Shown here in pieces: positions 48,080-61,417 of a stretch of DNA of 64,000 bases. The notes under the pieces are model-generated. The model was not told the DNA's origin, made no database searches, and saw only the letters and a list, made by a program, of their open reading frames with translations. The position numbers were made by a program, and so were the translations under genes. Positions within the stretch are counted from its first letter, which is position 1, and every line of letters starts with the position of its first letter. This DNA is from Apostichopus japonicus (Eukaryota; Echinodermata; Holothuroidea; Aspidochirotida; Stichopodidae). Where the stretch lies: contig NC_092572.1 in NCBI RefSeq assembly GCF_037975245.1, forward strand, positions 13,242,769 through 13,306,768. Direction: 5' to 3'.

Positions 48080-48162
48080 TCACAGACGATTACATCTCTT
48101 GCCTTCTGAATTTGTGTTCTCCCTGGTAAGCACCGTCTCCCTCTCTGGTAGTTTCGTGGCTT
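48080..48162 (-). CDS. Candidate last coding exon of gene E
   Basis: A strong acceptor (tttttttcag) opens a phase-1 frame of 26 codons ([12 protein letters not shown]...) ending in TGA at 48080-48082. The phase matches the donor at 51293. The sequence has no domain, so the link rests only on splice signals. Confidence 0.4.
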
Positions 48163-60100: not shown

Positions 60101-61417
60101 ATAATCCACAAACATGCGAAAGCGTTTGTAAACTATATAAATATAGCGAATAATGATTCTGCACCGCTAAGAGACGGACAAACGTGATCAGAGATGAAGT
60201 TCTATGATTTTACAAGTAAAACGTGGTGAGTGTAAATCACGTCGCGCTAACATCGTTACCACCAAGTTTAATTTTTCGTACACCTAGACGTGTTAACGGA
60301 TTGTAAATATTCAAATCAGCTAGATATTTCTTCCTGGTGGAGAAAAAAGGAAGTGAATGAAGCCTTTCGTTGGTATACCCGTAACAATAACTAATCCTAG
60401 AAATTTGTTTCATTACCTTTCACAAATGATGGGAATCTTGTCCCAGTGTATTTACTTACTCGGTCGCTGCAAAGTAACTACTGCTTCTTCGATTGGCCTT
60501 CCAATAAGAACATGAATAATTTTGTATTGATCGAAGTCATTCTTTGTTACTTCGTTGATAATCAAAGCTCCGGTCTCCGAAATATCATAACGACTTCTGT
60601 CCCCGTCAGAAATTGTTTTCCGTCCGTTTTCAAGTTTCACAATGGGAATATCAAATGCCGTCTTCCCACTATACCAGAAAACATTACCGATGACACTCAA
60701 GTAACAGTCGATGGAAGCTCGTTCACCCAATTCAGCATATACTTTCTCATCACAAGGAAGTACGGTACCTGAGTACGAAATAATTACAGGAATAGCAATG
60801 GATTTCTAGGAAACCTTTTAGACAAAAAATGAGGAGCATCACGGGGGGGTTATTTGTTGAAGGATAACATCACTGGACATTAATATACGTACAAAGAAGT
60901 AAAAAAAGAATTTTCAGTATACACATTATATTCTTTGTTTCTTGGTAAAGCTGAATATATTACCTATTAACCGAGTAAATATATATACACATATATACAT
61001 CTGTTCAATGTCTGTTAAAATTATCTCTTTCGAGATCCGGATTTAGGAATCACAAGTGATTGCGAGTTGATAAACATCATGTTTGATCTCTAGAGTAAGG
61101 TAAAATATGTCTCCAAGCAGAATTGGCATTCTTTGATACAGGTGGCAATTGTCTACGACCTTCCTTACCGATTTCGAACCTATGGACATACAATGAGCAT
61201 CGATAGCACAGTTGGTTAGGGTGTCCGCATTGAACAATTGAGGCCCGGGTTCGACTCCCGTTGGAGGCAGGGAGCGTTTTCACTGTTTTGGGTTTCCCAA
61301 CTCACTTCAATTCCTATAATATGTTATAGCGAATTCTCTTAGACAAACATTTACATACTTACCCGTACTACAAGGTGAGGAGACCATAACAAGCACAAGA
61401 ATCTTCAAAACTTCCAT
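48080..61417 (-). CDS. Gene E: Ig-TM-NACHT-LRR receptor
   Basis: Ten exons join in frame for about 914 codons: 61363-61417 (signal, [18 protein letters not shown]), 60460-60768 (Ig V-like), 59658-59975 (Cys-rich Ig C-like), 58730-58885 (membrane), 57663-57688, 57339-57369, 55245-56761 (NACHT), 51873-52042 and 51293-51372 (leucine-rich), 48080-48162 (last). Ectodomain joins are phase 1. The later joins run 1, 0, 1, 0, 2, 1 and each donor fits the next acceptor. The span is [21 protein letters not shown], followed by basic KRRCQ. An extracellular Ig module is thus wired directly to an NLR-type core under the membrane. The last exon is weakest. Further LRR exons could exist in the 52.0-55.2 kb intron. 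Confidence 0.8.
49815..49845 (+). other. Poly-G tract
   Basis: Two G runs of 13 or so are separated by a single T, potentially quadruplex-forming. It lies in a gene E intron. Confidence 0.8.
50035..50270 (+). repeat. Pyrimidine-rich tract
   Basis: About 235 bases are made mostly of C and T on the plus strand, with cccctt/ctcttc words. It directly precedes hammerhead-like motif 3 and may belong to the same retroelement remnant. The open frame across it is compositional. Confidence 0.6.
50324..50362 (+). ncRNA. Hammerhead-like ribozyme motif 3
   Basis: Stem I gcct/aggc (50324-50327 with 50359-50362), core CUGAAGA (50328-50334), hairpin atcct-gct-aggat, GAAA (50351-50354), then C-G and a GUC triplet. 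Stem III is reduced to one base pair, so activity as a monomer is doubtful. Confidence 0.4.
50462..50656 (-). CDS. Unrecognised 64-codon open frame
   Basis: An ATG-initiated frame ([15 protein letters not shown]...) ends in an acidic stretch ([17 protein letters not shown]). Codon use looks protein-like and taggcctaacgtt words lie just beyond its stop. It could be the first part of a transposon protein or of an unrelated small gene. I do not recognise it and see no introns tied to it. Confidence 0.25.
   Translation of the reverse strand: MAASGIDRKFNDHRFQIQMAITKRNEGMLDNRGEVFPNMFEPETTEEEAGSDSDVEIARLNGTQ
51293..52042 (-). CDS. Leucine-rich repeat exons of gene E
   Basis: The first exon (51873-52042, phase 0 to 2) reads [27 protein letters not shown], then [18 protein letters not shown]. 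This fits the L..L.L......I pattern and length of NLR-type leucine-rich repeats. The second exon (51293-51372, phase 2 to 1) continues with [18 protein letters not shown]. The NACHT exon ends in phase 0, so it joins directly. The intron between them at 51373-51872 contains GC-rich unrelated sequence (near 51650-51740). Confidence 0.65.
52043..54650 (-). other. Gene E intron, distal part
   Basis: I could not identify further leucine-rich exons here. Several repeated Pro/Leu-poor short frames have no support. Fragments such as ttgccatggttacc and atagcaacta near 54140-54390 look like decayed repeat. Confidence 0.35.
54651..55110 (-). pseudogene. Repeat-derived protein fragment in gene E intron
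   Basis: Minus-strand frames read [19 protein letters not shown], then after a frameshift [37 protein letters not shown] and [10 protein letters not shown]. This resembles a protein family found in many copies in invertebrate genomes and probably tied to mobile DNA. The frameshift near 54925-54945 shows it is dead. It sits between the NACHT and LRR exons of gene E. Confidence 0.65.
55245..56761 (-). CDS. NACHT exon of gene E
   Basis: One 1517-base exon opens in phase 1 and ends in phase 0. After a linker ([19 protein letters not shown]) comes a P-loop, [18 protein letters not shown] (about residues 371-388), matching the NACHT form of Walker A. The Walker B position reads [11 protein letters not shown] instead of hhhhDGLDE, so the Asp is Tyr. 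The sensor-1 strand reads [11 protein letters not shown] where TSRP is usual. Later [11 protein letters not shown] matches the NP-L helix region, and a winged-helix/helical part follows up to CNLCQANK. Nucleotide binding is plausible and hydrolysis doubtful. The domain is on the cytoplasmic side. Confidence 0.85.
57437..57574. repeat. (TAAA)n(TA)n microsatellite
   Basis: Lies between the two mini-exons of gene E (57339-57369 and 57663-57688). Confidence 0.95.
59264..59657 (-). repeat. Tandem partial copies of the gene E Ig exon end
   Basis: Three degenerate copies of roughly 120-150 bases follow the real exon end. Each repeats the sequence from the Cys/GNYPF region (gacatatt...cttccaca...gtcagatag) through the splice donor (cttaccaaac). 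The copies lie at about 59267-59391, 59388-59506 and 59508-59655. Donor-like sequences are kept, but most copies have stops or lost the Ig core. Confidence 0.75.
61029..61325 (+). mobile_element. tRNA-like SINE, copy 3
   Basis: The most intact copy. The head (cgagatccggatttaggaatc...) is followed by perfect box A (tagcacagttgg, 61204-61215) and box B (ggttcgactcc, 61248-61258), then a tail ending gggtttcccaactcactt. It lies in gene E intron 1, opposite in strand to the gene. Confidence 0.75.

Follow-up and report, generated by a model that had tools for sequence, protein, structure and literature searches.

A further Ig-TM-NACHT receptor gene of Apostichopus japonicus, with an altered NACHT module

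Sea cucumber receptors that combine immunoglobulin (Ig) domains with a NACHT module are already described, and a first cloning paper is cited from Dev. Comp. Immunol. (2020). In Apostichopus japonicus, AjNLRC4 was found by transcriptome analysis and is described, in the passages of the paper considered here, as a receptor of the membrane in the order Ig, transmembrane helix (TM), NACHT, the Ig part being extracellular and the NACHT part intracellular (PMC8699970). It is reported to sit in the membrane, to bind microbes through its Ig part and to dimerise on infection, and its NACHT module is reported to bind actin with a dissociation constant (Kd) of 5.87 uM (PMC8699970). A second Ig/TM/NACHT protein of this species, AjNLR-new (PIK48001.1, 1197 amino acids), is presented in passages of PMC13133943, which speak of Ig/TM/NACHT genes in the plural, while passages of PMC8913654 report that some NLRs of Chiridota heheva contain an Ig V-set domain, which was identified in none of the sea-urchin NLRs. 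Here, we analyzed a gene of this type on the minus strand of a 64,000-nucleotide stretch of the A. japonicus genome (the window; NC_092572.1, positions 13,242,769 to 13,306,768). The gene is ordinary for its animal and is a further, somewhat unusual member of the described Ig-TM-NACHT receptors. The initial annotation of the window had regarded known animal NLRs as cytosolic and the present order as undescribed. The former is wrong, as AjNLRC4 is a membrane receptor of the same species (PMC8699970), and the claim of novelty fails because AjNLRC4 and AjNLR-new (PMC13133943) are already published and NLRs with Ig V-set domains are reported from C. heheva (PMC8913654).

The gene was rebuilt from the window as ten exons encoding 914 amino acids with a single stop at the end. 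All introns are GT-AG and the in-phases of exons 2–10 are 1,1,1,1,0,1,0,2,1; the ten-exon gene is real, and one gene with one chain at the coordinates and phases initially proposed is confirmed (Table 1). Along the model, a hydrophobic N-terminus is followed by the Ig pair, the membrane span and NACHT, an order that holds up by sequence for the span and NACHT and by fold and a paralogue for the Ig pair. Exons 1–7 together with an alternative last exon (last exon A) translate exactly, letter for letter, into P0001, an A. japonicus protein of 840 amino acids that a protein search retrieved from NCBI as “uncharacterized protein isoform X2”. P0002 (BSL78_15789), from a different, shorter contig, has counterparts of exons 8–10, with exon 10 fully identical. 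Therefore, the public annotation also links the exons for Ig, TM and NACHT and the mini-exons into one gene, and the identity with P0001, together with paralogues that share the domain order, settles the joining, short of a transcript. That annotation wrongly joined two neighbours, an Ig-TM receptor and a NACHT gene, is hardly credible. Exons 4 and 7 are indeed separated by two mini-exons and by introns that measure 1041, 293 and 577 bases, and the case is built on gene models; however, the NCBI model makes the same joins, the order recurs in proteins of other records (including the BSL78 entries P0002, P0006, P0008 and P0011), and AjNLRC4, which stems from transcriptome analysis, has it as well (PMC8699970). 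As the NCBI model comprises exons 1–7, an erroneous fusion of two genes was rejected. The phase match of the mini-exons, initially put forward as improbable by chance, was likewise dropped as strong evidence of joining. This argument is weaker than claimed because exon 4 also joins exon 7 directly in frame, with the mini-exons omitted, and because 44 of the 711 AG..GT mini-exon pairs (20–40 bases) in the exon 4–7 intron keep the frame open, or 1/25 with a pyrimidine-tract filter.

The Ig domains of this copy lie below the Pfam cut-offs (C1-set E 0.079, Ig_3 E 0.13). The predicted Ig pair is instead assigned through the paralogue P0005 (V-set E 2.3e-6, above cut-off), a profile match to CD2 (E 0.0028) and a predicted fold of the Ig V/C type, which matches the two-domain Ig proteins CEACAM1, PD-L1 and CD80. 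The canonical cysteine pair is complete in Ig2 only (C150 and C208, pairing possible). The signal peptide was judged by position and hydropathy of the N-terminus and membrane spans by Kyte-Doolittle hydropathy only, which reaches 3.44 over 19 residues in the span of this gene. A reversed topology, with NACHT outside and Ig inside, has been claimed for the related AjNLR-new in passages of PMC13133943; for the present gene we regard it as highly improbable. Its N-terminal stretch looks like a cleaved signal peptide, the span is followed by KRRCQR (positive inside), Ig2 has the possible disulphide pair, four N-x-S/T sites lie in Ig2 and the stalk, and AjNLRC4 was found with Ig outside and NACHT inside (PMC8699970). 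Skipping of the symmetrical exon 4 would preserve the reading frame. P0003, a relative that keeps the hydrophobic N-terminus, Ig and NACHT, has no counterpart of this exon and looks like a TM-skipped form. Intron 3 holds a partial duplicate of exon 3 (59270-59350, minus strand, 70% identity over 27 residues).

The motifs of NACHT modules include the P-loop (Walker A), Walker B, sensor 1 and a motif of the winged-helix domain (WHD). In this gene, Pfam NACHT matches at residues 374-523 with E 6.5e-6 and 26.5 bits, 0.2 bits under the curated cut-off of 26.7, and the predicted fold of the inner part matches NLRC4, NLRP3 and NOD2 (NACHT-HD1-WHD-HD2), giving the NBD-HD1-WHD-HD2 fold of the NLR family. 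The P-loop ELGNGKTT is kept, Walker B is degenerate (MYGLEAI) and sensor 1 reads TSS, which leaves Walker A as the only intact one of these three NLR motifs. The same pattern is found in P0001–P0004: all four keep the ELGNGKTT P-loop and the WHD FxHxxxQ motif (FFHPWVQ), Walker B reads YGLE[A/T]I, and sensor 1 is TSS or TTN. Among the ten other family members, Walker B is DGLDEI in eight (DRLDEI in P0006, DGLKNQ in P0014) and sensor 1 is TSR in nine (TSH in P0012). The four proteins form one group with 100/100 support and a long stem in a tree that leaves most forks open and in which P0014 and this clade are long branches that meet. What is new in this gene is modest: it falls into a four-protein clade that keeps the P-loop and, judged from its motifs, has lost the Walker B acids and the sensor-1 arginine, its TM exon is skippable without a frame change, and it has three possible last exons. 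Searched directly by sequence against the PDB, the gene model gave three matches (best E 0.43) and P0007 none; a literature search for “degenerate Walker B” together with NLR and NACHT found no paper.

Altogether, protein and profile searches yielded 14 related proteins (P0001–P0014), 13 of them, all but P0004, labelled A. japonicus; P0001 is homologous to the 13 others, 12 of which bear that label. P0015, P0016 and P0017, aligned over 5–13% of the query only, were left out of the counts. At least part of the Ig pair, TM and NACHT stand on one chain in 10/14 (P0001, P0002, P0005–P0012), even if P0002 lacks most of Ig1 and P0008 and P0011 start late. The order that the initial annotation proposed to seek is common to ten A. 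japonicus database proteins. These need not be ten genes, because some may be one gene in two assemblies. P0014 combines a piece of Ig2 with TM and NACHT, and P0004 and P0013 have NACHT without Ig or TM; P0005 shows a strong NACHT match (E 5.3e-13). A profile search with a wider alignment (A3) returned five proteins found before and one crinoid NLR. Each profile search scores about 8,000 candidates, for which reason the A3 search missed some of its own members. None of three protein and profile searches found relatives labelled as other sea cucumber species, which is no evidence of their absence. A hydrophobic stretch after NACHT is present in all 14 proteins (Kyte-Doolittle maximum 1.35–2.05, at either of two neighbouring places); in the P0001 model it falls into helices of the globular module (564-575 and 591-608). 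Without its sequence at hand, we suspect that the second span claimed for AjNLRC4 is this stretch. A P-loop near residue 600, sought to recognise AjNLRC4, occurs in none of the proteins compared. In the window, a relic of a second Ig exon of this family lies at 42130-42300 on the minus strand (49% identity over 61 residues) and suggests a lost neighbour copy of the gene. Surface receptors wired directly to an NLR module are unusual, and A. japonicus seems to hold a whole family of them, of which this gene is an additional member, compact and cleanly bordered in its exons.

At the 3' end, the initial annotation had described a NACHT-LRR core, LRR meaning leucine-rich repeats. The NACHT part of this description stands, and the LRR part is overstated because it amounts to three to four units and isoform X2, which ends after exon 7 and last exon A, lacks exons 8–9, so that only some 3' forms would bear it. 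No Pfam family match to LRR was found in the 914-residue model. The short leucine-rich part is seen in the predicted fold of P0002, where residues 701-787 are modelled as repeated strand-helix units that align into the start of the NLRC4 and NLRP3 LRR. Three last exons are possible: A (isoform X2), B (P0003-like) and exon 10 (P0002-like). Among the database models considered, only A is used for the gene itself. An unrelated open frame lies between exons 7 and 8; this frame of 115 amino acids (54652-54999, minus strand) without a Pfam match is, by eye, maybe a mobile element; the X2 last exon sits within it in another reading frame.

As to function, we hold with moderate confidence that the gene encodes a pattern-recognition receptor of the AjNLRC4 kind, a type I membrane protein that is phagocytic and has a hydrolysis-impaired NACHT scaffold. 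Sequence and models support an IgV-IgC-like pair behind a likely signal peptide, then a single membrane helix with basic residues after it, an NLRC4-like module and an optional short LRR end. By analogy with AjNLRC4, the Ig pair would face out and bind microbes, binding would lead to receptor clustering and internalisation, and the inner NACHT module would recruit the actin machinery for coelomocytes to engulf the microbe. The motifs suggest that the NACHT of this copy may bind nucleotide and hardly hydrolyse it; the module would then serve as a scaffold that responds when the outer domains cluster, and not as a self-timed ATPase switch. Splice choice, with the TM exon in or out and three last exons, may yield membrane-bound, soluble, LRR-bearing and LRR-less forms. 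A bolder version, which we consider doubtful, is that a separate surface-NLR subfamily gave up ATP hydrolysis and is activated by Ig-ectodomain clustering alone, with splicing of the symmetrical TM exon and the three last exons producing membrane, secreted, LRR-bearing and LRR-less forms. If true, this would be an NLR whose ATPase switch is replaced by an outside ligand switch.

The altered motifs also bear on two other explanations. One, which seems unlikely to us, is that the degenerate-NACHT clade acts as regulatory pseudo-receptors, forming mixed complexes with Walker B-intact paralogues or sharing their ligands and dampening the response, with the TM-less form as a secreted decoy. Changed Walker B and sensor 1 beside a kept P-loop and FFHPWVQ motif in four proteins, the TM-less P0003 with its hydrophobic N-terminus and the skippable TM exon of the window gene would suit this, but a NACHT module with degenerate motifs may still be able to signal as a scaffold. 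The other, distinctly improbable, is a decaying copy, a duplicate that lost its NACHT function and is becoming a pseudogene. Degenerate catalytic motifs, Ig and NACHT scores at or below the family cut-offs, the missing Ig1 cysteine and a last exon newly placed within the unrelated open frame could be taken as signs of decay, whereas all ten exons are open with intact splice borders. Moreover, the altered Walker B is shared by 4/4 clade members, whose open proteins are 60–80% identical to P0001, a pattern that looks like selection after the change. The clade offers a natural test of whether a membrane NLR module needs ATP hydrolysis at all, and a paper on the family could briefly mention its altered NACHT together with the short LRR and the splice options.

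Several points weigh against this favoured reading. Isoform X2 is a database prediction, the evidence for the gene consists of models, and some paralogues are fragments. The predicted structures are middling, with a mean confidence (pLDDT) of 61.1 for P0001 and 63.2 for P0002, and nearly all of residues 1-165 of P0002 fall below 50; the match of P0001 to NLRC4 has a root-mean-square deviation of 21 and a Z within reach of chance for helical models. Ig1 lacks the second canonical cysteine (C40 and W50 are present, Y100 is followed by K-I), and the loss of Walker B could equally mean a decoy or a decaying gene. Function is carried over from AjNLRC4 by architecture only, not by sequence comparison. 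According to the passages of PMC8699970, AjNLRC4 has a much longer ectodomain (residues 1-482; Ig at 31-132 and 251-353; TM at 483-503), compared with a TM near 256 here, and this length, its claimed second TM (776-795) and its reported lack of LRR argue against simple transfer. For AjNLR-new, the opposite topology is claimed (PMC13133943).

Table 1 Exons of the Ig-TM-NACHT gene and its possible last exons in the window.
Feature	Position	Strand	Basis
Exon 1: translation start and probable signal peptide, aa 1-18	61363..61417	-	identical to NCBI protein P0001
Exon 2: Ig1, V-like, aa 19-121	60460..60768	-	P0001 identity; P0005 V-set; fold
Exon 3: Ig2, aa 122-227	59658..59975	-	P0001 identity; fold
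Exon 4: stalk and predicted transmembrane helix, aa 228-279, 156 bases, phase 1-1	58730..58885	-	model helix 251-278
Exon 5: mini-exon, 26 bases, juxtamembrane linker	57663..57688	-	rebuilt model; P0001 identity
Exon 6: mini-exon, 31 bases, juxtamembrane linker	57339..57369	-	rebuilt model; P0001 identity
Exon 7: NACHT, HD1, WHD, HD2, aa 299-804	55245..56761	-	Pfam, motifs, fold
Alternative last exon A, used in NCBI isoform X2 (P0001)	54741..54851	-	exact P0001 translation
Exon 8: part of short LRR-like end	51873..52042	-	homologous to P0002 728-785; P0002 fold
Exon 9: remainder of short LRR-like end	51293..51372	-	model; P0002 fold
Candidate alternative last exon B, continuing the frame of exon 9	49137..49207	-	P0003 C-terminus, 91% over 23 residues
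Exon 10: last exon of ten-exon model	48080..48162	-	27/27 residues identical to P0002 (BSL78_15789) C-terminus

The gene is adjoined by what appears from the sequence to be a tandem cluster of short receptors. Four relatives of a different short receptor with two Ig-like exons each were recognised by eye on the minus strand (3198-6277, 11369-13917, 19142-21004 and 36889-38473); in the first three, a hydrophobic exon comes next, and its tail contains tyrosines (for example EYAPMDI, YEESIYTI, YIDIYEMV). Their first exons are 30–48% identical among copies, and the two tested had no Pfam match above cut-off. We set aside these receptors, which lie within the initial 39 kb of the window, as a source of the NACHT-linked Ig domains: their Ig exons show mutual likeness only, and no likeness to the NACHT-linked Ig domains was detectable (best cross-match E 1.2). 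In addition, one Rfam tRNA match (29.9 bits) lies at 39293-39358 on the plus strand, where ARAGORN found none, and a tRNA-like stretch was seen by eye at about 61180-61270 in intron 1; both are perhaps short interspersed nuclear elements (SINEs).

Compared with known systems, the inner part shares with vertebrate NLRC4, NLRP3 and NOD2 the NACHT-HD1-WHD-HD2 fold and the start of the LRR. The vertebrate proteins differ in being cytosolic, with an N-terminal CARD or PYD, a long LRR and an intact Walker B. Among other echinoderms, LOC117122835 (P0017) of the crinoid Anneissia japonica resembles our gene in a hydrophobic span before NACHT (83-101) and differs in having no Ig match, LRRs and a possible second span at the C-terminus (1168-1186); it may represent a membrane NLR of another type, from a different class of echinoderms. 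A literature search on TM, NACHT and crinoid turned up only a review, and the passages of PMC11508797 and PMC3308324 that were considered contain no mention of Ig-NACHT proteins. The NLRs with Ig V-set domains of C. heheva come from a holothuroid, as does our gene, and are compared by description, the passages of PMC8913654 giving neither TM nor topology. AjNLR-new, also set beside our gene by description, combines Ig, TM and NACHT in a single protein of A. japonicus. The closest counterpart is AjNLRC4, from the same species, whose single chain runs from two Ig-type domains through a TM to NACHT, Ig outside and NACHT inside; our gene has the same order, with the Ig domains recognised by fold and P0005. 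It is set apart from AjNLRC4 in that residues 19-227 accommodate both Ig domains, the chain has a single TM, Walker B is degenerate and a short LRR is optional.
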